Source: Parazoarcus communis SWub3 = DSM 12120
GTDB taxonomy: Bacteria > Pseudomonadota > Gammaproteobacteria > Burkholderiales > Rhodocyclaceae
Length of the DNA: 64,000 bases
Direction of reading: 5' to 3'
Assembly: GCF_003226565.1 (NCBI RefSeq)
Contig: NZ_QKOE01000004.1
Location: 186,001-250,000 of the forward strand
Below the pieces are notes generated by a model. It was not told where the DNA came from. It saw only the letters and a program-made list of their open reading frames with translations, and ran no database searches. Positions 11,550-48,475 of this stretch are shown piece after piece. Each line of letters starts with the position of its first letter. The stretch's first letter is position 1. The translations under genes were made by a program, and so were the position numbers.

Positions 11550-11571
11550 GCCATCATGAGGCCGGTCATTC

Positions 11572-12312: not shown

Positions 12313-12330
12313 GGCCGGAGCCCATCCATC

Positions 12331-13322: not shown

Positions 13323-13330
13323 AATCGTGC

Positions 13331-15667: not shown

Positions 15668-15846
15668 CGGAGAAAGGCCGGATGGAAGCTCAATAGGGCC
15701 GTGGGCGCATGCCGCGCCGGGTGATGGGCCGGAAAGGGGGCGATCTTAACCCGAGTGAGGGGGTGGGGGACAGGCCGGAGTTGGAGCAGACGAGCACGCG
15801 GTGCTGGCTTTTGCCATCAGGGCGACAGGATCCAGGGAGGCTTTGC

Positions 15847-32222: not shown

Positions 32223-35200
32223 ATGAATTCACTGTATCGGCGTGGGACTGCATTCTGCGGCCAGGGACGCATCTCTTCACGTTTGCGCCTGGCGCTTTGC
32301 TGCGCGCTGGCGTGTGCTTCCTTCACTGCTACGCCAGCGCATTCCGCCGTGTTCAGTGAGGATGATCTGCTGCTGCTGGACGTCATGCTCGAACGCCAGC
32401 GCCTGGCAACATCCATTACGGCATACAACCACAACGGCGCGCTGCTGGTTTCCCTTGCGGAGATGGGGGGGGCGCTGGAGTTCCCAATCGACGTCAATGT
32501 GGCGGCTGGACGTGCAAGCGGTTATTTCATCAATCCGCAGCGCCGGTTTGAATTGAGTCTTTCGACGTCTTCCGTCGAAGTCGATGGAAAACGGTTCTCT
32601 TACTCTGCGGATGAGGTCGTTGTTCAAGGCGATTCCATTTTCGTCGCCATCACAACGCTGGCACGCTGGTTTCCGGTTGATTTTGAACTGCAGATGCGCA
32701 GCCTCTCCATTGCGGTGGCGCCGCGTGAATCCTTGCCGGTTCAGGCCCGTGAGCAAAGGCGCAGGGAGGCGGGCCAGATCAGCATGGTCGGGCCTGCGAC
32801 CCTGCCGCCTGTGAACAATGACTATCGTCTGTTGGGCCCTCACGCGCTGGATCTTGGCGTGGGCTATTCGATCCGTCGCAATCAGCGGGGTGATCAACCC
32901 ACAACCGGGCTGACCTATTCCGCGCTATTGGCCGGCGATGTTGCCTACATGGATTCCAGAATCTACCTTGGCGGTGACAAAAACGACGCGCTGACGAATT
33001 TCCGGGCCAGCCTTTCACGCAGCGACCTGAACGGGCCCTTGGGGCTGCGATACGTCGAGATCGGCGACATCCTGCCGCCTCAGGTTTCGGGTGTCGTGGG
33101 TGGCAGTGTTGAACGGGGCCTGCTGATTCAAGGCGGGGGTTCTGCGACCGGCCGGGACGACCTCATCGATGGCGACCAGATCCGTATTGCCGGTGATGCG
33201 CTTGAGGGTTGGGATGTCGAACTGTTCCAGAATGGCATGCGGATCGGCTTTCAGACGGTAGGGCTGAATGGCCGCTACAGTTTCGAGAACATTGAGCCGC
33301 TTGCCGGCGAGAACGACTTCGAACTGGTGTTTTACGGTCCGAACGGTGAGCAGCGGCGGGAGAAGGTGACGCGCTACAGCGGCCTGACACCTGACCAGCC
33401 TGGCAGTGTGAGATATCAGTTTTCGGTGTCGCAAAAAGGGCAGCAACTCTATGACCCGCAGGAAGACGACTATCTGAATCAGCAGCAGGATCTGATCAGC
33501 AATCGCGGATCGTTGCGTATGGCGGCGGGGGTGGATGTCCGCGTGCTGTCGCGCTTGTCCTTGCGTGCCGCGTGGAACAGCGTGGAGGTCAACGACAAGC
33601 GGCTCAACTATTACACCCTGGGTGCGAGGGCGGGGCTGGGGCCGAGCACCTTCGGGATCGATGCCACACGCGACCCCTATGGCGGCACCCGTTGGGATGC
33701 GTCGTTGCAGCTCCCTGCCGGGCTGGATATCTGGGGCTTTGACACCCGCTTTGTGCATAGCCAGTATCTGAATTTCGTCCCCGAAGATGAGAATGACACC
33801 GAGCAGCTGAATCTGAACAGCCGTACGGGTGTGACCATCACCGGACCGATCGGCCCTGTCGCAACCCGGTTCTCGGCGTTTCACAACCGAGCGTCGGACT
33901 ACAGCTACAACGTCTACACCGCGGGGTTCACCAGCCATCTGAAAGGCGTGCACTTTGGCAGCAACCTGAACTACGAACAGTTTGGCAAGGATTCCAGTGG
34001 ATTCCGGGAAGAAGACCGGGTGACGGGCAACGTCTTCTTCACCAGCCGGTCGGGGCCGATCTCTTTGCGCGGTGGTGCGAACTACACGATCAGCCCGGTC
34101 AGCGAATTCAATCGCTACTACATCGACAGCAACCTGCGCGTCGCGCGTGACATGTCGATGACCTTCGGCCTGAGTTACGACCCTTTGCGCGAGATCACGC
34201 GCTACACCGCCGGTCTGAACTGGCATATGCCGCAGGTCATTCTCAGCCCAAGGTTGAACTACGATAGTGATGGGGAGTACAGCGGCTTCCTGTATGCAAC
34301 CCTGTCCATGGGGCCGCGTCCCGACCGCACCGGTGTCATGTTCAGCAGCCGCTCGCTCGCCAATAATGGGGCGGTGATGGCTCGGGTATTCCTGGACAAG
34401 GATGGAAATGGCGTTTTCTCGTCCGGGGATCAAGTCCTGCAAGGCGTCAAGGTGCTTGCGCCGCAGGCCGGTAGAACCGCTACAACGGATGCCGAAGGGG
34501 TGGCACAGCTGACCGCGCTGTCGGCGGATCGACCCACAGACATCATGATCGACCCGGCATCCTTGCCGTCGACCTCGATGGTCGCGGCACATGGGGGCAA
34601 CTCGGTGCAGGCCCGGGCGACGACGACGACCCTGGTCGACTTCCCGATCATGCTCACCGGCGAAATCGAGGGGCGTGTCCTGTCTCAGCGCAACGGTGGA
34701 CGCGCGCCGATGGCAGGTGCCCTGGTGGAGTTACTGGATCCACAAGGGCAGGTCGTGGCATTCAAGGCCAGTGCCCACGACGGCTTCTTCGTGTTTGAAG
34801 GCGTCCCGTTCGGCAACTATACGGTGACGCTCGGCGGTACGCGGCGCACGCAGGTAGAGGCAAAACGTGTATCCCTCAGTGAGACGCGGTCGGACCTCCG
34901 GGGGGTGGACCTGCTCGTGCGTGATGTGGCCAGTGCGGCTCCGCCGGCCGCCTCGATACAGCCTGTTTCGGCCCCGCCAGTGCCGCCAGTGGCAGTGGTT
35001 CCACCCTTGCCGTCACCTCAGGCCAGCGTCAGGCCTGCCGTCCAGGAGCCTGTCCGGGTCCCGACTCAGCCTGCCGCGCCGCGTGCGGGTAGCGATGGCC
35101 GTCTGGTTCAGCTTGGTGCATTCAGTAGCGCGGAGAACGCCCAGACCGAGCTCAATCGTCTGGTCGGTCGTGGTGTCCTGCAAGCGAATCAGGCGACCAT

Positions 35201-35339
35201 TCTGGCAAGCGATTCGACAGAGCGCGGCATTCTGCACCGCATCGTGCTGTCGCCCGGATCGGGCTCTGCAGAGTCGGCTTGCCGGACCATCAAGGTGCGT
35301 GGCGGCGCTTGCATCAGCATCGATCCCAAGGTGCTGTGA
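32223..35339 (+). CDS. Usher-like outer-membrane protein with C-terminal SPOR domain
   Basis: 1038 residues. Signal peptide (to about residue 41), a periplasmic N-terminal region (about 45-170) and a large beta-strand-rich body (about 200-715) rich in alternating aromatic/polar strands, as in an outer-membrane barrel. A plug-like Ig segment lies near 313-385 (DVELFQNGMRIGFQTVGLNG, FYGPNGEQRREKVTRYSGL), as in fimbrial ushers. Next come an EF-like DKDGNGVFSSGDQ domain (about 720), a carboxypeptidase-regulatory-like Ig domain (about 810-870), a Pro/Ala linker and a SPOR-like domain (about 957-1038, GRLVQLGAFSSAENAQTEL). Canonical ushers are about 800-870 residues and lack SPOR. The chaperone and pilin-like partners are at 46567 and 44722. 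The usher assignment is an inference from these features. Confidence 0.7.
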   Translation: MNSLYRRGTAFCGQGRISSRLRLALCCALACASFTATPAHSAVFSEDDLLLLDVMLERQRLATSITAYNHNGALLVSLAEMGGALEFPIDVNVAAGRASGYFINPQRRFELSLSTSSVEVDGKRFSYSADEVVVQGDSIFVAITTLARWFPVDFELQMRSLSIAVAPRESLPVQAREQRRREAGQISMVGPATLPPVNNDYRLLGPHALDLGVGYSIRRNQRGDQPTTGLTYSALLAGDVAYMDSRIYLGGDKNDALTNFRASLSRSDLNGPLGLRYVEIGDILPPQVSGVVGGSVERGLLIQGGGSATGRDDLIDGDQIRIAGDALEGWDVELFQNGMRIGFQTVGLNGRYSFENIEPLAGENDFELVFYGPNGEQRREKVTRYSGLTPDQPGSVRYQFSVSQKGQQLYDPQEDDYLNQQQDLISNRGSLRMAAGVDVRVLSRLSLRAAWNSVEVNDKRLNYYTLGARAGLGPSTFGIDATRDPYGGTRWDASLQLPAGLDIWGFDTRFVHSQYLNFVPEDENDTEQLNLNSRTGVTITGPIGPVATRFSAFHNRASDYSYNVYTAGFTSHLKGVHFGSNLNYEQFGKDSSGFREEDRVTGNVFFTSRSGPISLRGGANYTISPVSEFNRYYIDSNLRVARDMSMTFGLSYDPLREITRYTAGLNWHMPQVILSPRLNYDSDGEYSGFLYATLSMGPRPDRTGVMFSSRSLANNGAVMARVFLDKDGNGVFSSGDQVLQGVKVLAPQAGRTATTDAEGVAQLTALSADRPTDIMIDPASLPSTSMVAAHGGNSVQARATTTTLVDFPIMLTGEIEGRVLSQRNGGRAPMAGALVELLDPQGQVVAFKASAHDGFFVFEGVPFGNYTVTLGGTRRTQVEAKRVSLSETRSDLRGVDLLVRDVASAAPPAASIQPVSAPPVPPVAVVPPLPSPQASVRPAVQEPVRVPTQPAAPRAGSDGRLVQLGAFSSAENAQTELNRLVGRGVLQANQATILASDSTERGILHRIVLSPGSGSAESACRTIKVRGGACISIDPKVL

Positions 35340-35349
35340 GGAGAAAACC

Positions 35350-36165
35350 ATGGAACTCCGATTCGGGAACACACAGCATCAATGCGCAAGCCTGTCGCTT
35401 GCCGTCGGTATCGTGGTGCTGGCGGTGTCGCCGGCCTGTGCCAGTCAGGCCAACGAAGAGGGGGTGCTGGATGGTGCCTCGGTCTACATGCAGGACTATC
35501 TTTCTGATCGGCGTCGTGTGGGCTCGCTGGTTGGCAGCATCGTGGGGGGGGCCTTGACGGCACACCCGGTCGGTCCTGTGATTGGTAGCCTGGTCGGCTT
35601 CCTGATCGGCAAGAGTTCGATGTACGAGAAAGTCGACGAGCAGAAGGCCAGCGTTGTCAGCGCGGTGGACCCACGGCGTGCAATCGTGCCGCCGGGTGGG
35701 TTGCCTGCGGCCTCGGTGTCCTTCGATCCCGGGGCTGGCAGCTCGATCAGTTTTGCACCGGAGGTGCCCGTCACCCTCCCGGTGGAGGCAGCGCCACGAC
35801 TTGCGACGCCTGCAGCGCCCCCAATGCAGGCGGCACCAATGCCGCAAGCCCGTCAGCCTGCACCATCCGTTGCCGTGCATCAGCCAGTATTGGCACCGTC
35901 GCCAGCCTCTCTACCCGAGATGGCCCCCGCGGTGCCTGCCCAAGTGCCTGCCTCGTCGCCCCGTGTAACCCTTGCCCAGCCAGCGCCGGCGGCGCCTGCC
36001 GCTGCAGAGCCAGTGCCGCAGGTGTTCGCCCCGACTCCTGTTCAACCCGCTTTGCCGCGGCCCGCGATGAACCGGGAGCAGATTGCCTCCCTCTGCAGTG
36101 GTGGGTCCCAGGGGCCTGTTGATCCCCGTCTGCGCAATGTCTGTTTTTATTTTCGTGGTAATTGA
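35350..36165 (+). CDS. Exported glycine-zipper, Pro/Ala-rich protein of unknown function
   Basis: 271 residues from the ATG at 35350 (GGAGAAAACC upstream), 10 bp after the usher-like gene and so probably translated with it. Signal peptide to about residue 32, then a glycine-zipper-like membrane segment (RRVGSLVGSIVGGALTAHPV, GPVIGSLVGFLIGKS). A long, probably unstructured Pro/Ala/Val region (about 120-240) and a conserved-looking Cys-containing end (ASLCSGGSQGPVDPRLRNVC) follow. I do not recognise a family. The layout suggests a periplasm-spanning or envelope-anchored accessory protein of the usher. Confidence 0.7.
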   Translation: MELRFGNTQHQCASLSLAVGIVVLAVSPACASQANEEGVLDGASVYMQDYLSDRRRVGSLVGSIVGGALTAHPVGPVIGSLVGFLIGKSSMYEKVDEQKASVVSAVDPRRAIVPPGGLPAASVSFDPGAGSSISFAPEVPVTLPVEAAPRLATPAAPPMQAAPMPQARQPAPSVAVHQPVLAPSPASLPEMAPAVPAQVPASSPRVTLAQPAPAAPAAAEPVPQVFAPTPVQPALPRPAMNREQIASLCSGGSQGPVDPRLRNVCFYFRGN

Positions 36166-36287
36166 AGGCGTTTGACGCGAATGACGCTCATGCTCCTCTT
36201 CTTCCGCAGGCAAGATGGCGGCCAGTCCGTTCCGGCGTCCGCCGCGGAGAGGTCGTCCCCTGACATTCTTGTGAAAGCACTCAAACC

Positions 36288-39200
36288 ATGATGGCAACGA
36301 TTTCTGCTTCCAGTGCGATGGTCGAGTCCTTTCGCCAGGCTGTCTCGCATCACCAGGCAGGGCGCCTGGCCGAGGCCGAGAGCGCTTATCGCGACTTGCT
36401 GTCCAGTTGGCCCGGTCATCCAGGTGCCAGTCATAACCTGGGTTTGCTGCTGCTTGGCAAGGGGCTGCGGGAAGAGGGGCTTGCATTGTTGAGTGCGGCT
36501 TTCGACGGCGATCGACAGGTGGTGCAGTATGGTCTGAGCTATCTGGACGCCTTGCTGCATTTCGGTGATGTCGTGCGTGCGGCAGCCGTGCTGGCTGAGG
36601 CACGGGTGCGCGGTGTCGATGCCTCAGCCCTGGCGCCCAGGGCCGATCGCTTGCAGCAGTTGCAATCGCCCACCCCACAGTGGCCCACTGCAGAAGAGAC
36701 CCAGCGCCTGGTCGAGTTGTTCAACGCCGGACAGCATGGAGCGCTTGAGGCCCATGCTCGCACATTGACCGAGTGCTATCCGGGTTTTGCCACTGGCTGG
36801 AAGGCGCTGGGCCTGGCACTGCACGCGCTGGAGCGGCATGATGAGGCTGCGGAGGCGCTGCGGCGCTGTACGGAGCTCAGTCCGGATGATGCCGAGGCAC
36901 ACAACAATCTTGGTGCCGTGTTGCAGGCCGGCCGTCGTTTTCCGGAGGCAGAGGCGTGTTTTCGCCGTGCGCTGATCCTGCAGCCTGGTTTCGCCGGTGC
37001 GCAACGCAATCTGGCTGTTGCCCTGCGTGACCAGGGGCGCCATGCCGAAGCTGAAACCTGCTTGCGCAGCCTGCTCCAGGCCCATTCCGGTGATGCACTT
37101 CTGCATAGCAACCTGGGTTTGCTGTTTGCCGTGCAAGGCAGAATGCCGGAGGCGGAGGTCTGCTATCGGAAGGCGCTTGAAATCAAACCCGATTTTGCCG
37201 AGTGTATTGCCCAACTGGCAGATGTCCATCGCGAGCTGGGCAGGCTCACCGAGGCGGAGTCGGGCTTTAATCGGGCGCTGGCACTGGATCCGGCGCTGCC
37301 TGCAGCGTTCGAAGGCCTTGCCAATCTGGCGCTGGCCAGTGGGCAGCCAGGGCGGGCCGTGGAGGCCTACTCGCGGGCAATCGAGCTGGCACCGAACCGT
37401 CTGACTGCACATAGCAGCTTGTTGTTTGCGCTGAATTACGCCAGTGGCGCATATTCGGTCGAGGCGCTGACGATCGCGAGCGCCTACGGCGAGCGTCTTG
37501 CCACGCAGGTGCGACAGCGCTACGCGGCCTGGCTTTGTACTGCACAGCCCGCGCGACTCCGTGTAGGTTTCGTATCTGGCGACTTGCGGCAGCATCCGGT
37601 CGGATTCTTCCTGGAAGGGATTCTCCCGTTGCTGGATCGCGATCGTTTCGAGCTCATCGCCTTTCCTACCGTCGATACGTCTGACCTGTTGACGGAGCAG
37701 TTGCGCGCGAGCTTTGCTGCCTGGTGTCCCATCACCCGTCTGAGTGACGATGAGGCTGCGGCGCAGATTCACGCCTACGGCGTGCATCTGCTGATCGATC
37801 TGTCGGGTCATACCGCCCATCAACGTCTGGGGGTGTTTGCCCGTCGGCCTGCGCCTGTACAACTGAGTTGGCCAGGCTACTTTGCAACGACAGGGGTTGC
37901 GGAGATCGACTGGTTCCTCGCTGATGAGGTCACTGTCCCGTCCGAGTCACGACGCTATTTTGTGGAGCAGGTCTGGTACTTGCCGGAGACTCGTTTGTGC
38001 TTTACCCCGCCGATCGATGCCCCGGCGGTTTCCCCCCTGCCCATGTCCAGCCGGCCTGGGCCGACGCTGGGGTGTTTCCAGAACCTGAACAAGGTGACCG
38101 ACGACGTGTTGCGACTCTGGGCGCGGGTGCTGCAGGCGCTACCGGCGGCACGCCTGCGCCTGCAGTCGCACCAACTGCGGGAGGCCGAGGGTGTCGAGCG
38201 TATCCGGGTTCGTCTGTCGTCCTGCGGGATTGATCTGGACCGGGTCAGTCTTCACCCTGCCACCTCGCGCCTCGCATATCTGGCCGCGCATGCCGAAGTC
38301 GATTTCATCCTCGACACCTTCCCTTATACCGGCGGTACGACCAGCTGCGAAGCGTTATGGATGGGGGTGCCGACGCTGACCTTGCGCGGTGAGACACTGA
38401 TCGCACGGCAGGGGGCGAGCATCATGCAGGCCGCAGGATTGAGTGCGTGGGTGGCTGACAACCCGGATGACTATGTCGCCCGAGCGGTCCGTCTTGCTGC
38501 CGATCACATTGCGCTCGCACATCTGCGTGCAGGTATGCGGGCGCGTCTCGTGCAATGTGCCCTGTTCGATACGCCGCGGTTTACCCGGCAGCTGGAGGAT
38601 GCGCTGTGGGGAATGTGGCGCGAGGCGGGCTCGATCGCAAGGGTCCCGGGTTGCGAGCCACCCGTACTCGAATCATTGCAGGACGCGACGCCGTCCGAAC
38701 GGGACGACCATTACGATACCCAGCAGCTGGTCGAACTGTTCAAGGCGGACAAGCACGAGGCTTTGGTTGCCCATGCTCGAGCGCTGACGCAACGGCAGCC
38801 TGGACATGGTCTGGCCTGGAAAGTGATGGGTGTGGCCTTGAGGACGCTCGGGCGGCTGGATGAGGCGCTTGCCGCAATGGAGCAGGCGGTCGAGCGCCTG
38901 CCTGAAGATGTCGAGGCGCGTGGCAATCTGGGACTGGTGCTGTTCGACCTCGGACGCCATGCGCAGGCGGCAGAATGCCAGCGACAGGCGCTTGCACTGG
39001 ATCCGGCAGATCCCGACTCCATCGTCAATCTGGTCGCGGCCTTGTTTGCGCAGGGGCAGTTGGACGAAGCCCTGCAGGTCCTGCAGGATGGCGATCAGCG
39101 GATCCCGCGCAATTTCCAGATCAATCTGCGCCTGGCTGAGGTGTTCTGGCGACAGAACAGATTGTCCGAGGCCGAGACCCATCTGAAGATGGCCAGCGAG

Positions 39201-40772
39201 CTCAGTCTTAATGACCCGGAGGCACATTTCAAGCTGGGAACCTTGCTCTATGAGCAGCGACGCCATGGCGAAGCCGAACGGGTCTTGCGTTATGTGCTCA
39301 CCTTGAAACCCGATCACGCCCGCGCGCATGGCAACCTTGGGCTCATTCAGCAGGTGCAACACCGCTATGAGGCAGCGGAGCAACATTTCCGTGATGCGCT
39401 CGCGCTTGAGCCGGAGCTGGCTGCACTGCACAGCAATCTTGGTAGTGCATTGCTCAAGCAGGGACGCCTCATCGAGGCGCTGGCGTGCTTCCGACAAGCG
39501 CTGGTTTTGCGGCCTGACTGGGCGGTCGTGCATAGCAACATTCTGTTTACGCTCAACTACGTCGCAGAGGACTCACCGCAGACGCTGCTCGAGGAGGCAA
39601 AAGCCTTCGGTTGCCGCATTGCGGTGCCGGAAGCGCGCCGTCATGCGGACTGGCGGGTACAGGCCGAGCCGGCACGGTTGCGTGTCGGCTTTGTATCCGG
39701 CGATCTGTGCCAGCACCCGGTGGGCTACTTTCTCGAGGGTATCCTGCCGGCGCTCGATCGCAGCCGGCTGGAGCTGATTGCGTATCCGACCGGGGATCGC
39801 AGCGATGTCCTGACCGAGCAGCTGAAGGCCAGTTTCTCGGCCTGGCACCCTTTGAATGAACTGGATGACGATGCAGCCGCTGCCCGGATTCGCGATGATG
39901 GCGTGCATGTGTTGATCGATCTGTCGGGTCATACCGCCCTGAACCGGCTTGAGGTGTTTGCGCGCAAGCCCGCGCCGGTACAGGTCAGCTGGCCGGGCTA
40001 TTTCGCAACGACCGGTGTTGCCGAGATGGACTGGTTCATTGCCGACAGGGTGACCGTGCCGGAAACCCATCAAGGCTATTTCACCGAGCGGATCTGGTAT
40101 CTGCCGGATACCCGCTTGTGCTTCACGCCGCCCGTCGATGCGCCGCCCGTTGCGCCTTTACCCATGCTGCGGAAAGGAGCCCCTGTCCTCGGGTGTTTCC
40201 AGAATCTGACCAAGGTCAGCGACGCGGTATTGCGACTCTGGGCCAGGGTGCTCGATGCCGTTCCCCAGGCGACATTGCGATTCCAGGCGCTGCAGTTGTC
40301 CGAGCCCGCGGGCCAGGCAAAGCTTCATGATCGCTTGCTGGCTTGCGGGATCGAGCCGTCACGGGTCGAAATGCATCCCTCGTCGTCCCGTCGTGACTAT
40401 CTGGTTGCGCATGCTGAGGTTGATCTCATCCTCGATACCTTCCCCTTCACCGGCGGCACCACCACTTGTGAAGCCTTGTGGATGGGGGTACCGACCCTGA
40501 CCCTGGCTGGTGACACGCTGATTGCCCGGCAGGGTGCGAGCATCATGCAGGCTGCCGGCTTGAGCGACTGGGTGCTTGAGTCCCACGATGCCTATGTCGA
40601 ACGTGCGGTGGCCCTGCTGGCCGCGCCCGCCGAACTTGCCAGCTTGCGAAGCGGTCTGCGCGAACGCCTGTTGCGTACCGCTTTGTTTGATACCCCGCGC
40701 TTTGCCCGCCACCTTGAAGAGGTCCTGTGGGGCATGTGGCGGCATTTCACCTTCTCCGAGATCAAGGAGTAA
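36288..40772 (+). CDS. Double TPR-GT41 protein (two O-GlcNAc-transferase-like modules)
   Basis: 1494 residues containing two complete copies of a TPR array plus a GT41 (OGT/SPINDLY-type) domain. Module 1: TPRs about 8-415, GT41 about 422-770 (GDLRQHPVGFFLEGILP, APVQLSWPGYFATTGVAEID, GCFQNLNKVTDDVL, DTFPYTGGTTSCEALWMGVP). Module 2: TPRs about 805-1110, GT41 about 1127-1485 with the same motifs (GDLCQHPVGYF, APVQVSWPGYFATTGVAEMD, DTFPFTGGTTTCEALWMGVP). The HP histidine, the FQN-x-x-K lysine and the TGG loop used for UDP-sugar binding are kept in both, so both may be active. GT41 enzymes add GlcNAc or related sugars to Ser/Thr of proteins in the cytoplasm. A third module follows 6 bp downstream. 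Flagellins or cytoplasmic proteins are possible targets. Confidence 0.85.
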   Translation: MMATISASSAMVESFRQAVSHHQAGRLAEAESAYRDLLSSWPGHPGASHNLGLLLLGKGLREEGLALLSAAFDGDRQVVQYGLSYLDALLHFGDVVRAAAVLAEARVRGVDASALAPRADRLQQLQSPTPQWPTAEETQRLVELFNAGQHGALEAHARTLTECYPGFATGWKALGLALHALERHDEAAEALRRCTELSPDDAEAHNNLGAVLQAGRRFPEAEACFRRALILQPGFAGAQRNLAVALRDQGRHAEAETCLRSLLQAHSGDALLHSNLGLLFAVQGRMPEAEVCYRKALEIKPDFAECIAQLADVHRELGRLTEAESGFNRALALDPALPAAFEGLANLALASGQPGRAVEAYSRAIELAPNRLTAHSSLLFALNYASGAYSVEALTIASAYGERLATQVRQRYAAWLCTAQPARLRVGFVSGDLRQHPVGFFLEGILPLLDRDRFELIAFPTVDTSDLLTEQLRASFAAWCPITRLSDDEAAAQIHAYGVHLLIDLSGHTAHQRLGVFARRPAPVQLSWPGYFATTGVAEIDWFLADEVTVPSESRRYFVEQVWYLPETRLCFTPPIDAPAVSPLPMSSRPGPTLGCFQNLNKVTDDVLRLWARVLQALPAARLRLQSHQLREAEGVERIRVRLSSCGIDLDRVSLHPATSRLAYLAAHAEVDFILDTFPYTGGTTSCEALWMGVPTLTLRGETLIARQGASIMQAAGLSAWVADNPDDYVARAVRLAADHIALAHLRAGMRARLVQCALFDTPRFTRQLEDALWGMWREAGSIARVPGCEPPVLESLQDATPSERDDHYDTQQLVELFKADKHEALVAHARALTQRQPGHGLAWKVMGVALRTLGRLDEALAAMEQAVERLPEDVEARGNLGLVLFDLGRHAQAAECQRQALALDPADPDSIVNLVAALFAQGQLDEALQVLQDGDQRIPRNFQINLRLAEVFWRQNRLSEAETHLKMASELSLNDPEAHFKLGTLLYEQRRHGEAERVLRYVLTLKPDHARAHGNLGLIQQVQHRYEAAEQHFRDALALEPELAALHSNLGSALLKQGRLIEALACFRQALVLRPDWAVVHSNILFTLNYVAEDSPQTLLEEAKAFGCRIAVPEARRHADWRVQAEPARLRVGFVSGDLCQHPVGYFLEGILPALDRSRLELIAYPTGDRSDVLTEQLKASFSAWHPLNELDDDAAAARIRDDGVHVLIDLSGHTALNRLEVFARKPAPVQVSWPGYFATTGVAEMDWFIADRVTVPETHQGYFTERIWYLPDTRLCFTPPVDAPPVAPLPMLRKGAPVLGCFQNLTKVSDAVLRLWARVLDAVPQATLRFQALQLSEPAGQAKLHDRLLACGIEPSRVEMHPSSSRRDYLVAHAEVDLILDTFPFTGGTTTCEALWMGVPTLTLAGDTLIARQGASIMQAAGLSDWVLESHDAYVERAVALLAAPAELASLRSGLRERLLRTALFDTPRFARHLEEVLWGMWRHFTFSEIKE

Positions 40773-40778
40773 TCCCAG

Positions 40779-42887
40779 ATGTCCTCTTCCGAATTTGTTA
40801 CCGCGCTTCAGGGGCGCGGCCCCACTGCCGCCGATGATCAGGCGCTGATTGCGCTGTTCTCGGCTGGCAACATGCAGGCCTTGCTCGAGCAAGCCGGTGC
40901 TTGGGTGATGGCCCATCCGGGCTATGCGTTTGGCTGGAAGGCACAGGGGCTGGCCTTGCTGAATCTGCAGCGTCCGGATGAGGCTGCGCAGGCCCTGCGC
41001 CGGGCGCTCGATCTGCAGCCTGACGATGCCGAAGGCTGGGCGAATCTCGGCATCCTGCTACAGGAAAGCGGCAAGCTGCCCGAAGCGGAAGACGCGCTCA
41101 GACGGGCACTTGCCGTCGATTCGCAACTGGCCGCAGCGCACGGCGCACTCGGCGTGCTGTTGTCGCGTGAGGGACGGGATGATGAGGCAGAAGCCGTCCT
41201 GCGCCAGGCGTTGTCACTGCAGCCCCAGTTGCCGAGGGTCAATGGCGCCTTGGGCGAGATCCTGGCGCGCCGGGGGCAGTTTGCCGATGCCGAACAAAGC
41301 TTCAAGCAGGAGTTGGCGCTGGAACCGGGTAATCCGGCGTTGATCAACCAGATTGGCCGTCTGATCCTGCGGCAGCGGCGACTGGGCGATGCGGTGGCAG
41401 TATTCCGCTACCTTGTCGAGCTTGCACCGGACTTTGTCGAGGGGCACAACAACCTGGGCGTCGTGCTTCAGCAGGCTGGCCATCTGACGGGGGCGGAAGA
41501 GGCTTTTCGCAACGCGCTGTCCTTGCGTGCCGACAGTGCGGAGATCTACAGCAACCTCGGTAACGTATTGCAGCGCCAGGGACGTTTCATCGAGGCACAA
41601 AGTGCTTACCGGCGTGCGTTGGCACTGAACCCAAGGTTCTACGACGCCCACAGTAATCTGGTGGGCGCGATGAACGAATGCGAAAACGTGACCCCGCAGA
41701 TGCGACTCAACGAAGCCCTGCGGTATGGCGAGAATCTTGCGCGCAATGTCGCTCACCGTTACTCGGAGTGGATCTGTCCGGAACAGCCTGTCCGCCTGCG
41801 GGTCGGCCTGGTGTCCGGTGACCTGCGTACCCATCCGGTGGCCTATTTCACGTTGGGGGTGTTGCGCGCGCTGGATCGATCCCGTGTGGAGGTCTTTGCC
41901 TACCCCAGTACGCTCGAGGCCGATGCAATGACAGCGGAGATCAGGGCTGCATGCGACCACTGGACACCGATCGCGGGATTGTCTGATCAGGCCGCAGCAG
42001 ATCGGATCCATGCCGATGGCGTTCATGTGCTGATCGACATGTCCGGACACACGGCGGACAACCGCCTGCCGGTGTTCGCGTCACGCCCGGCACCGGTACA
42101 ACTGAGCTGGCCGGGCTATTTTGCGACAACCGGGGTAGCGGAAATCGACTGGTTCCTGGCCGATGCGATCAGTGTTCCGCCTCAGCAGGCAGGCCAGTTT
42201 GTCGAGCGTATTCATTACCTGCCTGATACCCGTTTGTGCTTCACCCCGCCGCCGCAGGCCCCCGATGTTGTGCCGCCTCCACTGCTGCAACGTGGACGGC
42301 CGACATTCGGCTGTTTCCAGAACCTGTCCAAGCTCAATGATGCCGTGCTGAGCCTGTGGGCGAGGGTGCTGGTGGCCGTGCCGCAGTCCCGCTTGCGTGT
42401 CCAGAGCCGTCAACTTGACGAACCGGAGAGCCGTCAGCGTCTGATGCAGCGGATGCAGGCCTGTGGCCTGGACCTTGCGAATGTCGATCTGTATGGCGGC
42501 CTGAGCCGGGAGGACTATCTGGCTGCGTATGCCGAAGTAGACGTGGTATTGGACACCTTTCCCTACACCGGCGGCACGACGACCTGTGAGGCGCTGTGGA
42601 TGGGGGTGCCGACCCTCACCGTCGTGGGCGACTCGCTGATTGCCCGTCAGGGTGCCAGTCTGATGTCGGCAGCCGGCTTGCCCGAATGGGTCTGCGAGAC
42701 CGCCGATGACTACGTCGCCAAGGCGGTGGAAGTGGTTTCGGACCCTGGACATCTGGCGGAACTGCGCGCGGGTTTGCGGGCGCGGGTGAGCGCCTCGGCA
42801 CTGTGCGATGCACCGCGCTTTGCCCGCCAACTCGAAGCAGCATTGTGGAGCATGTGGTCGCAACGCGATGCCGTTGGCAAGCGTTGA
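40779..42887 (+). CDS. TPR-GT41 glycosyltransferase (single module)
   Basis: 702 residues: an N-terminal TPR array (about 45-310, e.g. DEAAQALRRALDLQPDDAEG) and a GT41 domain from about residue 335 (GDLRTHPVAYFTLGVL, APVQLSWPGYFATTGVAEID, GCFQNLSKLNDAVL, DTFPYTGGTTTCEALWMGVP). It starts 6 bp after the double-module gene, whose modules it resembles throughout, so the three modules most likely arose by tandem duplication. Key residues are intact. Function as for the upstream gene: protein O-glycosyltransferase, target unknown. Confidence 0.88.
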   Translation: MSSSEFVTALQGRGPTAADDQALIALFSAGNMQALLEQAGAWVMAHPGYAFGWKAQGLALLNLQRPDEAAQALRRALDLQPDDAEGWANLGILLQESGKLPEAEDALRRALAVDSQLAAAHGALGVLLSREGRDDEAEAVLRQALSLQPQLPRVNGALGEILARRGQFADAEQSFKQELALEPGNPALINQIGRLILRQRRLGDAVAVFRYLVELAPDFVEGHNNLGVVLQQAGHLTGAEEAFRNALSLRADSAEIYSNLGNVLQRQGRFIEAQSAYRRALALNPRFYDAHSNLVGAMNECENVTPQMRLNEALRYGENLARNVAHRYSEWICPEQPVRLRVGLVSGDLRTHPVAYFTLGVLRALDRSRVEVFAYPSTLEADAMTAEIRAACDHWTPIAGLSDQAAADRIHADGVHVLIDMSGHTADNRLPVFASRPAPVQLSWPGYFATTGVAEIDWFLADAISVPPQQAGQFVERIHYLPDTRLCFTPPPQAPDVVPPPLLQRGRPTFGCFQNLSKLNDAVLSLWARVLVAVPQSRLRVQSRQLDEPESRQRLMQRMQACGLDLANVDLYGGLSREDYLAAYAEVDVVLDTFPYTGGTTTCEALWMGVPTLTVVGDSLIARQGASLMSAAGLPEWVCETADDYVAKAVEVVSDPGHLAELRAGLRARVSASALCDAPRFARQLEAALWSMWSQRDAVGKR

Positions 42888-42952
42888 GCCCTCGTTTGGC
42901 GGTAATGGGTGGACCTGAACTTGATATGGACGGCTGACGCCGGACGGGAGAC

Positions 42953-43564
42953 ATGATGAGCAATACCAAGACATTCCTGCATGTGGGCTGCGGGCCCCAA
43001 CGCAAGGCGGGTACGACCCGGGGCTTCAACACCGACGAATGGGTTGAACTGCGTCTGGATATCGATGAATCGGTCTCGCCAGATATTGTCGGCACCATGA
43101 CCGATATGTCGGCGGTGCCCAGTGAGTCCGTGGACGCGGTCTTTTCCAGTCATAACATCGAGCATCTCTATGCGCACGAGGTGCCCGTCGCGCTGGCCGA
43201 GTTCATGCGGGTATTGAAACCGGACGGCATCGCCGTGATCACCTGCCCGGACCTGCGTTCGGTCTGCGCACTGGTCGCCGAGAACAAGCTCATCGAAGCC
43301 GCTTATGTGTCGCCTGCGGGGCCCATCACGCCGCTCGACATGCTCTATGGGCTGCGTTCCTCGATGGCACAGGGCAATCTGTTCATGGCCCACCGCTGCG
43401 GATTTACCGAAGATGTACTGAGCGGAACCCTGTATGGCGCCGGGTTCAAGATTGTTGCCACGATCAGCCGGCCGGCTGCCTTCGACCTTTGGGCAGTGGC
43501 CAGCAAGAGTCCGCGCAGCGAGGCCGAAATGCGCGACCTGGCAGCCATGCATTTTGTCCGCTGA
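42953..43564 (+). CDS. Class I SAM-dependent methyltransferase
   Basis: 203 residues. Motif I appears as FLHVGCGPQRK near residue 8, then an acidic strand (ELRLDIDESVSPDIVG) and SVDAVFSSHNIEHLYAHE with VLKPDGIAVITCPDL, typical of Methyltransf_11-like proteins. No signal peptide. It is the last plus-strand gene of the accessory block, 65 bp after the third GT41 module, so glycan or sugar methylation is a reasonable guess. The exact substrate is unknown. Confidence 0.85.
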   Translation: MMSNTKTFLHVGCGPQRKAGTTRGFNTDEWVELRLDIDESVSPDIVGTMTDMSAVPSESVDAVFSSHNIEHLYAHEVPVALAEFMRVLKPDGIAVITCPDLRSVCALVAENKLIEAAYVSPAGPITPLDMLYGLRSSMAQGNLFMAHRCGFTEDVLSGTLYGAGFKIVATISRPAAFDLWAVASKSPRSEAEMRDLAAMHFVR

Positions 43565-43590
43565 GCTTCCTTGGAGCGCGATTCTCGAAC

Positions 43591-43617
43591 CGGGTTGCCA
43601 GTCGTTTTGGCAGCCCG
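43591..43617. terminator. Bidirectional hairpin between convergent methyltransferase and DUF4402 genes
   Basis: CGGGTTGCCA (43591-43600) pairs with TGGCAGCCCG (43608-43617) with one G-U pair. It lies in the 62-bp gap between convergent genes and is followed on the plus strand by CTTTACCCTT. A shared terminator is likely. Confidence 0.6.
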
Positions 43618-43626
43618 CTTTACCCT

Positions 43627-44616
43627 TCAGTAGCTGACGGTCAGGGTATAGCTGCCCCGGTATTCTCCATCCGCATAGCCTTGGCTGGTGGTTTCGGTTT
43701 CGAGGCTGGCGCCGACCGAGATCGACAGCGCACCCAGTGCATTGGTCTGTGCCGGTGAGGCGGGAAAGGTGGTGAAGTCCTTGACCACGAAGCGCGCGCT
43801 GGCCAGGCCGAGCGTGGTATGGGTCATGAAGATGCTGCCTGTCTGTACGTTGATGTTGATCGACGTATTGGGCGCCGCACTACTGAGCTGAAACTTGCCA
43901 GCCTGGGCACCGGTGAGCGCCAGCAGGCGTGCGCCGCCGGTGCTGACGCTGCTCAGGCTGCCATTGGGGCTGAGCGTGAGGCGAGCGGTGCCGCCCGCCG
44001 TGGGGAAGGCCGCAACCGTACCGAACGAGAGCGCCTGCTCTTCGGTCAGGGTCAGGGTAGATTGCACTTGCGCTGAGACATCCAGTTGCTCGATGAAGGT
44101 CAGGAATCCGCCTTCACTTTCCGACCAGTACGAAACACGCAATTGCGCACCACCCGTGTAAGGCGCATCGCCATAGGGTGTTCCACTGCCGCTACTTTGC
44201 AGGCGTGCGCCGAGTTTTAGCTCGGCTTCTCCAGTCAGGTTGCTGACCAGCGTCTCCGGGTGTTCCCATGCGGTCACCCGAAAAAATTCCGGCAGGCCAA
44301 AGCCGCCCTCGCTGAGTTGGGCGTCATCGATCTCGAAGCGCAGGATCACGCCGGGGGGGAAGCCGCTGAGGCGATACTCGCCTCGCGCTGCGCCCGAAAT
44401 CGCGATCATCTCGCCGGAGCTTGTCAGTCCTCCCGCAGGGGACAAGCGGAGTGCAGATACGGTGGCGTTGTGACGAATTGCAAACAGGCCGAAATTCAGG
44501 GGAGTCACCGTTTCGATGGCCGGCGCTGCAAGCAACAGGTGCGGATACAAGCACACAGCGGCCAGCAGGCTTGCTAGTGCTGAGCGGGTGTAATGGGCGC
44601 TGAGTATCCGAAGCAT
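43627..44616 (-). CDS. Two-domain DUF4402 protein, possible tip or adaptor subunit
   Basis: 329 residues. A signal peptide (to about residue 30) precedes two tandem DUF4402-like domains. Domain 1 is about 33-165 (VTPLNFGLFAIRHNATVSAL, ISGAARGEYRLSGFPPG). Domain 2 is about 185-329 (LTLTEEQALSFGTVAAFPTA, LTGAQAGKFQLSSAAPNTSI), ending in YRGSYTLTVSY. DUF4402 proteins are secreted beta-rich proteins found with chaperone-usher type genes. It lies downstream of the single-domain pilin-like gene, beyond a strong terminator and with a weak ribosome-binding site, so lower expression is expected. That suits a tip/adhesin or assembly-base subunit. Confidence 0.7.
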   Translation of the reverse strand: MLRILSAHYTRSALASLLAAVCLYPHLLLAAPAIETVTPLNFGLFAIRHNATVSALRLSPAGGLTSSGEMIAISGAARGEYRLSGFPPGVILRFEIDDAQLSEGGFGLPEFFRVTAWEHPETLVSNLTGEAELKLGARLQSSGSGTPYGDAPYTGGAQLRVSYWSESEGGFLTFIEQLDVSAQVQSTLTLTEEQALSFGTVAAFPTAGGTARLTLSPNGSLSSVSTGGARLLALTGAQAGKFQLSSAAPNTSININVQTGSIFMTHTTLGLASARFVVKDFTTFPASPAQTNALGALSISVGASLETETTSQGYADGEYRGSYTLTVSY

Positions 44617-44660
44617 GGAAGCCCGTGGTGTTTGACAGTAGGAGTGATAATACCGTCTGG

Positions 44661-44693
44661 AAAAAAAACAGGCAGGGGATTGTCCCCTGCCTG
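44661..44693 (-). terminator. Intrinsic terminator after the DUF4402 pilin-like gene
   Basis: On the minus strand an 11-bp perfect stem (CAGGCAGGGGA / TCCCCTGCCTG, loop CAA) is followed by eight T residues. It lies 29 bp after the pilin-like stop and before the two-domain gene. This is the strongest rho-independent terminator in the window and would make the downstream gene depend on read-through. Confidence 0.92.
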
Positions 44694-44721
44694 CTGAGCT
44701 TGAAGCTGGCGAAACGCGAAC

Positions 44722-45396
44722 TTAGTAAGCTGCAGTGACTTCGAAGCTGCCGGTGTAGGTGGCGTCTTCGTACGCAATCCGCGAGCCACCGGCAACGTCG
44801 GTAACCAGGGTCGCGCCGATACCGAACGAGATGCTGGTCTGACCGAAGGCCGGGGTGATGGTGCATACGTTGCTTGAGCTGCAGTTGCCGCTGGTCGAGC
44901 CACCACTTGCTGCACCGGCACGGAAGTTACCCAGGTAGAAGCGAGCTGCCAGGGGGTCGCCGAGGCGCACTTCCACCGCGTTGGACGAACCCTGCTCGGC
45001 GAGAAGCTGGGCAACACTGCCTGCAATGGTGCCAGTTGCTTCGAGAGAAGCAAATGTTGCGGTGGGCAGCGTGATCTTCACCGGGGTCGTGCCGCCGACG
45101 GCGACGCTACCACGGGCTGCCTGCTGGCCACCTAGCGTCAGCAGCGTGAGGGTGGTCGCGCCCGAGCCCTGGACCGTGCCGTAGGTGCCGGCAGGTGCCA
45201 GATCGACATACTTGTATGCGGATGCTGCAGCCGCAGTCGCGAAAAGGGTACCAAGGTTCAGATCCTGAACCTTGGTCACGGTCAGGGTGTTTTGCACCGT
45301 GGCAGTGACGTCGAACGTGGTCTGGGCAGAAACACCACCCGCCACACCGAGGATGGCGACGGCAGCCGCAGCCTTGGGAAGGATGTTGGAACTCAT
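44722..45396 (-). CDS. DUF4402 pilin-like exported protein
   Basis: 224 residues. Sec signal peptide (ILPKAAAAVAILGVAGGVSA, cleavage before QTTFDV), then one DUF4402 domain: VTATVQNTLTVTKVQDLNLG at the start, Thr/Gly/Ala-rich beta strands, one Cys pair (GNCSSSNVC) and a C-terminal YTGSFEVTAAY strand resembling the last strand of pilins. Good ribosome-binding site (CAGGAG). A sigma-28 promoter lies about 180 bp upstream and a strong terminator follows, so it is probably an abundant single-gene transcript of the late flagellar class. It is the candidate major subunit of a chaperone-usher-like filament. Confidence 0.75.
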   Translation of the reverse strand: MSSNILPKAAAAVAILGVAGGVSAQTTFDVTATVQNTLTVTKVQDLNLGTLFATAAAASAYKYVDLAPAGTYGTVQGSGATTLTLLTLGGQQAARGSVAVGGTTPVKITLPTATFASLEATGTIAGSVAQLLAEQGSSNAVEVRLGDPLAARFYLGNFRAGAASGGSTSGNCSSSNVCTITPAFGQTSISFGIGATLVTDVAGGSRIAYEDATYTGSFEVTAAY

Positions 45397-45574
45397 GTGA
45401 ATCTCCTGATTTAGTCAAGTGGTACTGCTAACAACGGCCGGCGTAAAACAATCTTGACCAACCCCGATGCCGTTACCATCAGGCTTACCTGCCTTCTCGC
45501 TCATCCCCGGTTCCTGTGGTCGGAAGGGGCCGGGAAACACTTCTGGGCAATAAGGAAGACCCTTGGTATGCAGG

Positions 45575-45601
45575 TGAACGGCGTCGCTACAACAAACTTT
45601 A
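45575..45601 (-). promoter_or_regulatory. Sigma-28 promoter of the DUF4402 pilin-like gene
   Basis: On the minus strand TAAAGTTT (45594-45601), spacer of exactly 11, then GCCGTTCA (45575-45582). The -35 is a perfect match and shares GCTAAAGTTT with the flgM promoter; the -10 matches 6 of 8 including GCCG. It lies in the 241-bp gap between the TylF-type gene and the pilin-like gene and would leave a leader of about 170 nt. Confidence 0.75.
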
Positions 45602-45637
45602 GCCTTATTTACGGGCGGCGATGAATTTCTTGCAAGT

Positions 45638-46522
45638 TCAGCGTTTACGCCAGAAAACAGACATTTCGTCGATGCGCACCAGCTCGTCCTGGATGCCGTG
45701 GTGGCGGCGGAAGTCGGTGATGGCCTGTTCGCACTGCGGAAGTGCGTTGTAGTCATCCACAATGACGAATCCGCCCGGCGAGAGCTTGTGATACAGGGCA
45801 TTGAGGGCATCCATCGTCGATTCGTACAGGTCGCCATCCAGGCGCAATACGGCAAGCTTGTCGATATCGGCTGTCGGCAGGGTGTCCTTGAACCAGCCCT
45901 TGAGGAACATGACCTGCTCGTCCAGCAACTCGTAGCGCTCGAACAATTCCCTGACTTCTTCCTCACTCACGGCAAGATAGGGCATGACATCGGCGGACAG
46001 ATCCCAGTTTTCATCTTCTGGCAAGGAGGGCTTGGGCAGGCCCTCGAAAGAGTCGGCGACCCAGACCTTGCGGTCATGGATGTTGTGCGCCTGCAGGAAA
46101 CCCCGCATGAAGATCGTGCTGCCGCCCTTCCAGACGCCGGTCTCGATGAAGTCGCCGGGAATCCGGTCGGCAAGGACCGCATTCATGCAGTCGTGCAGGT
46201 TGTCCATGCGGGCACGACCAATCATGGAGTGGGCGACAAAGGCGAAGTTTCTGGCTGCAACCAGTTCGGAAGAGGTGCCATCGGCGGTGTTGGTTCGAAT
46301 CTGTATCCAGCCACCACCCCGGCGCATTTCCTGCACTCTTGCGTACAGCTCACCGTGGCGGGCGTTCAGAAATTCACGTGCCATCTCATCCAGCGTGGTC
46401 TGGCGTGGGAACAGTAACTGCATCAACAGCCCGAGGATGCGGGCCTCGTTCTCCAGGTAAAGTTCATTGAGCAGGCTCTTCTTGAGCAGGGACAGGTAAC
46501 GTTCGGTCATTGCAGTCGACAT
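45638..46522 (-). CDS. TylF/MycF-family methyltransferase
   Basis: 294 residues from the ATG at 46522 (AGAGGCTCC upstream). Conserved TylF/MycF features: FIETGVWKGGSTIFMRGFL (SAM binding), VWVADSFEGLPKP, RLDGDLYESTMDALNAL and GGFVIVDDY, with the Asp residues used for Mg2+. An N-terminal extension of about 90 residues is present. Known members O-methylate deoxysugars of macrolides; homologues occur in glycan clusters. It lies between the chaperone and the pilin-like gene and may methylate the sugar used by the GT41 enzymes (inference). Confidence 0.85.
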   Translation of the reverse strand: MSTAMTERYLSLLKKSLLNELYLENEARILGLLMQLLFPRQTTLDEMAREFLNARHGELYARVQEMRRGGGWIQIRTNTADGTSSELVAARNFAFVAHSMIGRARMDNLHDCMNAVLADRIPGDFIETGVWKGGSTIFMRGFLQAHNIHDRKVWVADSFEGLPKPSLPEDENWDLSADVMPYLAVSEEEVRELFERYELLDEQVMFLKGWFKDTLPTADIDKLAVLRLDGDLYESTMDALNALYHKLSPGGFVIVDDYNALPQCEQAITDFRRHHGIQDELVRIDEMSVFWRKR

Positions 46523-46566
46523 GGTGGAGCCTCTTTGCACTAGGACGATCGGTTTAAGGGAACGGC

Positions 46567-47430
46567 TCAGCGAACCTGCAGGACCTGCTCATGCCAGAGC
46601 TTGCCGCGATATTCATCGGTGCCCTCGTAGGCCACCCGGATCAGCGCGCCGGAGGGGAAGCTGCGGTCGCGCAGGATCAGGACCAGATGGCGCTCGCCCA
46701 CATCCGGGAACACGCTGATGCTCTCCTGCAGGCCGATCCTTTCCACTGGGGTGGTCATCGAGGTTTGCAGGTCGACGGTGACGCGCCCGAAGCTGCTGGT
46801 GTTGCCCTTGTGCTTCAGGGTGACGGCCAGGCGCGCATTCTGTTCGTTGCCTGTTGCCGGAATCGGGGTGACCTGGGTGATCTGGACCTCGGGTGGGGTG
46901 TCCATCTGATAGCGCACCACGACGGGAACCGCGATCGACATCTGCATGTCGAGTTGCAGCCGGACCTTGTCATCCGCATTGCCGATTTCCGACCTGGACA
47001 CGGGCTCGGAGACTTCGGGAACGACCCGGAACAGCAGGTGCGAGCGGTACTCGCCAGGGGCGAGATTGCCTTCGGGGCGGAAATTGATGCGCACCGTCTG
47101 GCTGGTGTTGGGTTCGACCGTGACCTGACGGGGGGTGAAGCGCAGGTGCGGGCTGGCAGGGGGGTGCGGCACCGGGGCGCCGTCCGCAATGCGTTCGCCA
47201 ACGCCGTCCCGCGTCTGGGTCTGCTCGATCCACTCCAGTCGATAGGTGCGCGAGCCGTTGCTGGGATTGCGCAGGATGAAATTTGCGGTCTCTCCGGGTT
47301 GTTGCAGCAGCAGGCGCACGGGGCTGACAAGCATGTCCGCGTGTGCCCAAGAGGTGAGCAGGCAGAACAGGATGCTGGCTGCGACCCAGTTCAGGAAAGC
47401 GGTGGGGTTGAAGCGTTTCAGGCCGGGCAT
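46567..47430 (-). CDS. PapD-like fimbrial periplasmic chaperone
   Basis: 287 residues from the ATG at 47430 (AGAGGAGG upstream). Signal peptide to about residue 30 (SWAHA-DMLVSP), then the two Ig-like domains of a pilus chaperone: SPVRLLLQQPGETANFILRN, FTPRQVTVEPNTSQTVRINF and PGEYRSHLLFRVVPEV, then a second domain of about 110 residues. Such chaperones complete the fold of subunits and hand them to the usher, here presumably the DUF4402 proteins and the protein at 32223. It lies 58 bp downstream of flgT on the same strand, so read-through from the fli operon is possible. Confidence 0.8.
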   Translation of the reverse strand: MPGLKRFNPTAFLNWVAASILFCLLTSWAHADMLVSPVRLLLQQPGETANFILRNPSNGSRTYRLEWIEQTQTRDGVGERIADGAPVPHPPASPHLRFTPRQVTVEPNTSQTVRINFRPEGNLAPGEYRSHLLFRVVPEVSEPVSRSEIGNADDKVRLQLDMQMSIAVPVVVRYQMDTPPEVQITQVTPIPATGNEQNARLAVTLKHKGNTSSFGRVTVDLQTSMTTPVERIGLQESISVFPDVGERHLVLILRDRSFPSGALIRVAYEGTDEYRGKLWHEQVLQVR

Positions 47431-47488: not shown

Positions 47489-48475
47489 TTACCACGCGCG
47501 GACGTAGGCGCTTGCGCGTAGTTCGGGCTGGATCGGGAAGTCGATCTGGCCGATGGCGTGCTCGGGATAGACGTGACTGACGACGAATTCGCCAAGCGGT
47601 CGCTCCTGCCAGGTGGGGGGCGAACCAGTCACAACCGGTGTGGGTTCGTGCAGGAATACACGTAGTCGTTGCCCCGGCTCGACATTGCTGCTTGAACCGG
47701 CGTTGATCTGCAGTTTGCCGGGCGCGGCAGGCAGCAGCCTTGCCTGCATCGGCAGGCAGGCGAGTTCGTCCACTACGTCGTCAAACTGGCGGCTGATCAG
47801 CGTGTCGATGCCGGCACCGAGCGGTGATTCAGGATTTGAAGCCAGTGTGTTGCCGTCCACCCGACCCTTGATCGCATCGTGATGGGTGAGCTGCCTGATC
47901 AGGGTGCCGGAGAATCCGTCGTAAATATCGAGTACTGCCGACAAGGTGCGACGATCGGCAAAGGGTTGGGGAATGGGCTTGAACGGGCCAAGATCGATGC
48001 GGCCGCGTTGAACGCTGAGATCGTTGACTTCGCCGGCGACGATGAACTGCACGTCAAACTGACGTGCCAGCGTCCGTATTTGCTGGTGTGTATCCTCTGC
48101 CGGATTCAGTGCCAGCGAACTGCCGTCGCGGAGCAGGAATCGGTCGCTTGTCCGCAGGCGGCGCTGCAACTCGCGAGACCACGTGGAGGAGAGCCCCGGC
48201 AGATCCGCTGCCTGAAGTGGGCGGCTGACGGGCAGGCCGAGTACCAGCACTTTCTTGCGCAGTGCAAAGGGTGAGCCGGGGTCTGCCGCGCACAGCGATG
48301 AGGGACGTGCCGCCTGGCGGGCTTGCTCGGCCAGTTCGGCCTGGCGCCGGGCTTCTTCATTCTGGGGCGACGGGAGCGAAGCGCAAGCTGTCAGCAGACT
48401 GGCCGACATGACCATGGCCAGCAGACGCACGCCTGTCTGGTTGGTCTGGGGGAAGGGATAAGTCAGCGTTCGCAT
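47489..48475 (-). CDS. flgT: Flagellar H-ring protein FlgT-like lipoprotein
   Basis: 328 residues from the ATG at 48475, 11 bp after fliR. The lipobox LLTAC puts the lipidated Cys at residue 31. The middle domain (KKVLVLGLPVSRPLQAADLP, QFIVAGEVNDLSVQRGR, LDIYDGFSGTLIRQLTH) and the C-terminal SH3-like part (GKLQINAGSSSNVEPGQRLR, FVVSHVYPEHAIGQIDF) match FlgT. FlgT forms the H-ring around the L/P-rings in Vibrio and supports high-torque polar flagella. The lipoprotein signal is a difference from Vibrio FlgT. Confidence 0.8.
   Translation of the reverse strand: MRTLTYPFPQTNQTGVRLLAMVMSASLLTACASLPSPQNEEARRQAELAEQARQAARPSSLCAADPGSPFALRKKVLVLGLPVSRPLQAADLPGLSSTWSRELQRRLRTSDRFLLRDGSSLALNPAEDTHQQIRTLARQFDVQFIVAGEVNDLSVQRGRIDLGPFKPIPQPFADRRTLSAVLDIYDGFSGTLIRQLTHHDAIKGRVDGNTLASNPESPLGAGIDTLISRQFDDVVDELACLPMQARLLPAAPGKLQINAGSSSNVEPGQRLRVFLHEPTPVVTGSPPTWQERPLGEFVVSHVYPEHAIGQIDFPIQPELRASAYVRAW

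Follow-up and report, generated by a model that had tools for sequence, protein, structure and literature searches.

We have analyzed a stretch of 64,000 nucleotides from the genome of Parazoarcus communis SWub3 (contig NZ_QKOE01000004.1, positions 186,001 to 250,000; below, the window), in which genes for a putative surface filament lie among flagellar genes. We consider it probable that these genes encode a divergent, non-classical chaperone-usher fibre, the major subunit of which would wait for the flagellar sigma factor sigma-28 (FliA). An earlier note on this DNA had proposed a chaperone-usher-type route with DUF4402 subunits. This proposal is supported by profile matches of the usher and the chaperone to known families, and by the joint occurrence of usher, chaperone and subunit genes in other genomes. 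The parts named in that note (an usher-like protein, an envelope accessory protein, here a glycine-zipper protein, three GT41 modules, two methyltransferases, two DUF4402 proteins and a PapD-like chaperone) were all found in long open frames, as summarized in Table 1. Gene content, the homology of usher and chaperone, the sigma-28 sites, the association of the FlgT-like gene and SPOR with the module and a hairpin were read from the sequence; from these we infer that a fibre would be formed, at what time and place, and that it may be adhesive.

Usher, chaperone and distribution of the module

Profile comparison identifies the large protein encoded after flgL as a remote usher, with homology to the known ones. 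Built from 21 homologues, its profile matched a set of 11 PF00577 ushers with an hhalign value of 99.2% (E 6.7e-20, 698 columns), and the alignment spans the N-domain, barrel, plug and C-terminal domain of known ushers. The negative controls, an LptD barrel and reversed ushers, gave 0.28% and 5.0%. The same profile gave 98.95% with nine presumed-archaic ushers, 85% with two classical ushers and 44% with three TcfC-type proteins, a ranking that is rough because the sets differ in size; the comparison ushers and chaperones were taken as mostly archaic from their pilin neighbours and the chaperone motif. The predicted build of the protein is an N-domain, a plugged barrel (barrel and plug being placed via the alignment), C-terminal beta domains, a proline-rich linker and a SPOR domain. 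In Pfam no usher model matched the window protein over cut-off, whereas CarboxypepD_reg, SdrD_B and a C-terminal SPOR domain did; NCBIfam gave nothing over cut-off, and a PDB sequence search with the usher as a single sequence and as a profile found no usher. A match to PF00577 over cut-off, a mark of the archaic class, was reached by neither the window protein nor the relatives scanned; L175, L177 and L182 (numbers with L denote loci, those with G genomes and those with C contigs) do match PF00577 below cut-off, and the best relative has an E value of 6.9e-4. No PF00577 usher or PF00345 chaperone was found in this genome at E 1e-3. In one relative, L183, the usher gene is split into three frames (7326-10040).

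The window chaperone is a non-classical PapD relative, again by profile comparison. PapD_N is sub-threshold in all three module chaperones tested with Pfam, and a PDB search with the chaperone, as a single sequence and as a profile, gave a best match of E 0.31. A profile of 20 sequences matched 11 PapD chaperones at 98.8% (E 5.8e-17, 211 columns); after removal of signal peptides by a rough rule, which missed them in L008, L052 and L063, the value was 97.9%, and the reversed control gave 0.7%. Arginine R129, in the motif GEYRSHL, is present in all 20 module chaperones. A YR motif is aligned to it in 8 of the 9 archaic-type comparison chaperones (L091 is without it), and FW is found there in both classical ones. 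Archaic and alternative chaperones have a characteristic arginine, according to excerpts of PMC4654587, and R129, as read from the alignment, is in line with that residue.

Of 31 genomes compared, 27 have the usher, the chaperone and at least one subunit gene lying together, in only a few cases next to flagellar genes; the lack of co-occurrence that the earlier note named as a refutation is thus not what is seen. The first 21 of these genomes helped to build the models; in the later class-search set alone, the trio is present in 7 of 10. The four genomes without the full trio comprise two loci at contig ends (L174 and L180), one on a short contig (L012), and L178, where no chaperone or subunit gene was recognised within 20 kb. 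In most loci the gene order is subunit-chaperone-usher. The spread of the module is patchy: a full-length usher occurs in this genome and one other among 61 close relatives, and at wider ranks usher matches were found in 4 of 399 genomes (order), 11 of 369 (class) and 16 of 398 (phylum, some matches partial), own genome counted each time. The stretches around four of the phylum-search matches (G759, G644, G670 and G798) were left out of the locus comparison. Genes resembling the flg and fli genes of the window lie near the module only in the window's own group and in L178, where usher, glycine-zipper and FlgT-like genes (939-15932) lie near cheV, flgA, flgM, flgN and a YcgR-like gene. Two flagellin-like frames are located a few kb upstream of the module in L063 (451-2731), and the window frame at 12331-13197 is partially matched in both L011 and L014.

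Five plasmid records carry a DUF4402-chaperone-usher cassette with no flagellar genes annotated beside it. The annotations of its genes read carboxypeptidase regulatory-like, SdrD B-like, DUF4402, molecular chaperone, fimbria/pilus chaperone or hypothetical; none reads usher. The cassette lies beside IS6 transposases in L184 (Polaromonas sp. JS666 plasmid 2) and L188 (Polaromonas sp. E5S plasmid), and is therefore probably mobile.

Table 1. Features of the module and of related regulatory genes, with positions in the window.
Feature	Position	Strand	Basis or remark
Divergent usher-like protein, 1038 residues	32223-35339	+	Pfam and hhalign; follows flgL
Glycine-zipper protein	about 35350-36165	+	PF13488 E 1.6e-4, below cut-off
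Tandem TPR-GT41 glycosyltransferase, two modules	36288-40772	+	PF13844
TPR-GT41 glycosyltransferase, third module	40779-42887	+	PF13844
Class I methyltransferase (Methyltransf_11), accessory	42953-43564	+	Pfam
Two-domain DUF4402 protein	43627-44616	-	PF14352 in two stretches, E 3.9e-19
Hairpin and T-tract directly 3' of major subunit gene	44667-44695	-	Probable partial terminator
DUF4402-type probable major subunit (D4402), 224 residues	44722-45396	-	Place, homologues, local profile
Sigma-28 promoter site TAAAGTTT-N11-GCCGTTCA, 14/16	45601-45575	-	205 bp upstream of D4402 ATG
TylF-type methyltransferase, accessory	45638-46522	-	Pfam E 1.3e-98
PapD-like periplasmic chaperone	46567-47430	-	PapD_N E 0.01, below cut-off; profile comparison; R129
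FlgT-like lipoprotein	47489-48475	-	FlgT_M over cut-off; lipobox read by eye
fliR, flagellar border	48487-49287	-	11 bp before FlgT-like gene
fliA (sigma-28) region, regulator outside module	about 10809-11468	+	TIGR02479 E 1.6e-85, over cut-off
flgM (anti-sigma-28)	19999-20304	-	Named from sequence and place; sigma-28 site 20364-20338

DUF4402 subunits and the sigma-28 sites

The two DUF4402 genes differ in how they can be recognised. Only the two-domain protein matches PF14352, while D4402 has no Pfam match up to E 0.1 and was called a subunit on three grounds: the place of its gene, the homologues found in relatives, and a local profile to which D4402 itself contributes. Its signal peptide is followed by an alternating hydrophobic N-terminal stretch, read by eye, and its C-terminal strand resembles the last strand of pilins. 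D4402 is the probable major subunit, and the two-domain protein is probably a tip or minor subunit. The hairpin that follows the D4402 gene probably causes partial termination between the major subunit gene and the later genes; in a comparison made by hand, a hairpin with a T-tract was also found after a subunit gene in L065, L011, L014, L055, L062 and L063, one without a T-tract in L008, and none was seen in L013. We found no paper on DUF4402 or PF14352 in the literature searched, which covers few subscription journals, and make no claim about print beyond it.

The tie to sigma-28 stated in the earlier note is confirmed in the window, with a 14/16 site upstream of D4402 and fliA itself within the stretch. 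The sigma-28 (FliA) consensus is TAAAGTTT-N11-GCCGATAA; when checked on flgM and the flagellin genes, at least 13/16 was scored by 3 of 6 flagellin genes. The only other window site of at least 13/16 with the same spacing lies upstream of flgM. A scan of 22 loci from 21 genomes (934 kb, both strands counted) found 16 sites of at least 13/16, of which 10 precede module subunit genes (in nine loci), 2 precede flgM (one named by synteny) and 4 lie elsewhere. Both promoter boxes are kept across loci while the spacers differ. L011 has a site of 12/16 before its subunit gene. Overall, a site of at least 13/16 precedes the subunit in 9 of 31 assessable loci, and the count is 10 of 31 when 12/16 is accepted. 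Loci counted as assessable where the sequence upstream of the first subunit gene was covered, as it was in 20 of the first 21 genomes, 6 of the 10 from the class search and 5 of the 7 plasmids matched; in L183 the frame after the assessed stretch is not recognised by the subunit profile. In nine ordinary chaperone-usher loci (236 kb) there is no site of at least 13, and four of 12, none of them reading into a pilin gene. Two sigma-28-like sites precede the subunit gene of L063, and L178 has a 14/16 site upstream of flgM.

The sites fall in the Azoarcus/Pseudothauera group, in L011/L013/L014, in G782, in G687/G751 and in G641; as loci within a group are related, they amount to about five independent cases. 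Of 22 usher genomes, 16 have FliA over cut-off; so do 9 of the 10 that have a site of at least 12, the exception being the incomplete G062. All 8 usher genomes tested for Flagellin_N gave a match, a weak one in four of them. By its sigma-28 sites, the module has a real flagellar link. Among the literature matches listed, no paper deals with chaperone-usher subunits under FliA or the flagellar regulon. In the P. communis genome, two flagellins lie near a GT41 gene on contig C22, and contig C187 has three more Flagellin_N matches and a second FliA over cut-off, which suggests two flagellar systems.

Several results weigh against a fibre gated by sigma-28. In the window, the usher and chaperone genes have no preceding sigma-28 site (best scores 11/16 and 9/16). 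Among the later loci, a site was found in none of 6 assessable class loci and none of 5 plasmid loci, in which FliA was not searched. Five genomes (G337, G393, G066, G664 and G718) have FliA over cut-off yet no site. The later loci and these five genomes together limit the sigma-28 rule to some lineages. Finally, a match of the subunits to archaic pilins, 93% at first, fell to 16% (7-55% in five subsamples) without signal peptides, and we no longer claim that homology; the test has little power, given that two pilin sets matched each other at 0.6%.

Flagellar partners, glycosylation genes and alternative readings

The genes of this site lie in two runs that face each other. After flgL, the plus strand carries the genes of the usher, the glycine-zipper protein, the three GT41 modules (in two genes) and the small methyltransferase. 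From fliR, the minus strand carries those of the FlgT-like lipoprotein, the chaperone (58 bp further on), the TylF methyltransferase, D4402 and the two-domain DUF4402 protein. The flagellar borders are flgL, as in the earlier note, and fliR; the flgT border gene of that note belongs to the module. The product of that gene scores 47.9 bits with FlgT_M (cut-off 31.2) and does not reach the cut-off of 27 with FlgT_C (22.2). A FlgT-like gene is found beside the module in 8 of 31 genomes, and accompanies the glycine-zipper protein and SPOR-bearing ushers. The glycine-zipper protein, which was found in 9 genomes besides the window, likewise accompanies SPOR-type ushers. A SPOR domain is fused to or beside the usher in the window group, L011-L014, L053, L054, L062, L063, L175, L177 and L178; in L015 it is marginal, with a Pfam match not reproduced by the local model. 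In L053, L054 and L185 it forms a separate small protein encoded directly after the usher gene. Sigma-28 sites of at least 12 were found in 9 of 13 loci with SPOR and 1 of 13 without (Fisher p 0.0036, kinship ignored), an association noticed post hoc, with L011 counted at 12/16, L015 on its marginal match, and the plasmid loci left out.

These elements can be arranged into a working scheme. The parts for assembly are coded inside flagellar runs, the usher and zipper protein after flgL, and the FlgT-like protein and chaperone after fliR. The PapD-like chaperone would carry the DUF4402 subunits across the periplasm to the usher, which would polymerise them in the outer membrane and export the resulting fibre, probably tipped by the two-domain DUF4402 protein. 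Because it has a sigma-28 promoter of its own, D4402 would be made only after hook completion, like flagellin: if the promoter is used, completion of the hook would lead to export of FlgM, releasing flagellin and D4402 together, and the hairpin after the D4402 gene would keep expression of the tip gene lower. SPOR domains bind septal peptidoglycan, and for this reason the usher may be placed at the new pole; SPOR and the FlgT-like partner would position it close to the flagellum, at the septum or the new pole. Taken as a whole, this would be a checkpoint fibre, in which the export machine is coded with the early flagellar genes, the major subunit is held back until FlgM export, the usher is set at the new pole, and a single cell pole gets a flagellum and a matching fibre that run on one clock. 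We advance the complete scheme tentatively, as a possibility with somewhat less than an even chance.

If true, the best-studied pilus pathway would gain a branch overlooked by the standard models, and the flagellar sigma-28/FlgM checkpoint would set the timing of a pilus subunit. Pilus-mediated attachment and motility are commonly viewed as opposed programmes. A fibre made alongside late flagellar genes would invert this opposition, and a second surface fibre would be made only while the flagellum nears completion.

The same partners admit another arrangement, in which the usher and the FlgT-like lipoprotein form an outer-membrane assembly at the flagellar base, and the DUF4402 proteins coat or brace the flagellum. 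It would account for the FlgT-like gene accompanying the module even where the stretch examined has no flg/fli-like genes (L013, L175 and L177), for the SPOR domain of the usher, for the sigma-28 site on the subunit gene and for the setting of L178 among chemotaxis and flagellar genes. However, the core trio is present in G672, G688, G780, G800 and G786 (a near-miss) without FliA over cut-off, flagellin not having been searched there, and it is present on plasmids with no flagellar genes annotated beside it; these occurrences suggest that the core is independent of the flagellum. We regard a flagellar coat as unlikely.

The earlier note had also credited the filament with its own glycosylation genes; on such a reading, the GT41 enzymes and methyltransferases would belong to the filament and glycosylate DUF4402 subunits in the cytoplasm before Sec export. 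GT41 genes are found at the same position in Azoarcus sp. L1K30 and Pseudothauera lacus as in the window, and adjoin the module only in this Azoarcus/Pseudothauera group; the TylF methyltransferase has the same place in Azoarcus sp. L1K30 and is absent in Pseudothauera lacus. As another GT41 already lies beside flagellins of this genome (on C22), the three window modules may have a different target. Among eight GT41 neighbourhoods compared, four are not beside flagellin-like genes (G012, G017, G046 and G047, all more distant copies), which would also suit a target in the filament. But the other four are beside such genes: they comprise the C22 copy, itself more distant, and G007, G004 and G021 (47-50% identical), which are the three closest relatives beyond the group of the window. 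The other module loci compared have no window-like GT41 match, except for L182, in which a GT41-like frame (277-2109), 34% identical to the third module of the window, lies about 6 kb from the usher. GT41 as a part of the filament was therefore rejected as first choice, and seems to us improbable. Given this distribution and the flagellin-side relatives, the second suggestion of the earlier note, two units at a shared site, is the better fit; to it we add that the filament unit, too, is linked with the flagellar cascade. Most likely, the window GT41 genes form a flagellar glycosylation unit of their own at this shared location, and the DUF4402 proteins may be a second target of it.

We give least credence to the chance arrival of an ordinary stand-alone pilus cassette in a flagellar cluster, with neighbourhood and promoter matches that are functionally meaningless: the patchy spread, the plasmid copies beside IS (insertion sequence) elements and the lack of a site in all 11 later loci would agree with it, but subunit genes in differing neighbourhoods (L013, L014, L054, L055, L062 and L063) are repeatedly preceded by sites of at least 13/16, with only 4 stray ones in 934 kb.

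Comparison with known systems

A sigma-28-dependent chaperone-usher fibre remains our preferred reading, and its nearest counterpart is the archaic (sigma-class) pathway, such as Csu of Acinetobacter. The module resembles that pathway in the profile matches of chaperone and usher, in the subunit-chaperone-usher order of most loci and in the non-classical arginine of the chaperone, a residue found in the alternative class as well (PMC4654587, in excerpt). It differs in its usher, which matches no Pfam usher model over cut-off and carries additional C-terminal beta domains and, in many cases, SPOR, and in the sigma-28 site of some lineages. Its subunits are of DUF4402 type instead of SCPU; 8 of 22 have no cysteine, whereas archaic pilins carry invariant cysteines in the account excerpted from PMC4654587. 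The window D4402 has two cysteines. The module thus lacks two marks of the archaic class, invariant pilin cysteines and a PF00577 match over cut-off. With the alternative (alpha-class) pathway of CFA/I and Ecp the module has the chaperone arginine in common, by the same excerpts; the usher profile reached only 44% with the TcfC-type proteins, a small set and a weak test, and PF16967 had no match in this genome.

FlgT is part of the flagellar H-ring of Vibrio. The window protein is like it in having FlgT_M over cut-off and a weaker FlgT_C, and unlike it in being a lipoprotein encoded beside a chaperone-usher module, also away from flg and fli genes. The window GT41 genes share the TPR-GT41 architecture of those beside flagellin genes, to the degree of identity given above, but number three modules and lie between flgL and the DUF4402 genes. 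By profile, then, the module is homologous to chaperone-usher systems, and is closest to the non-classical ones.

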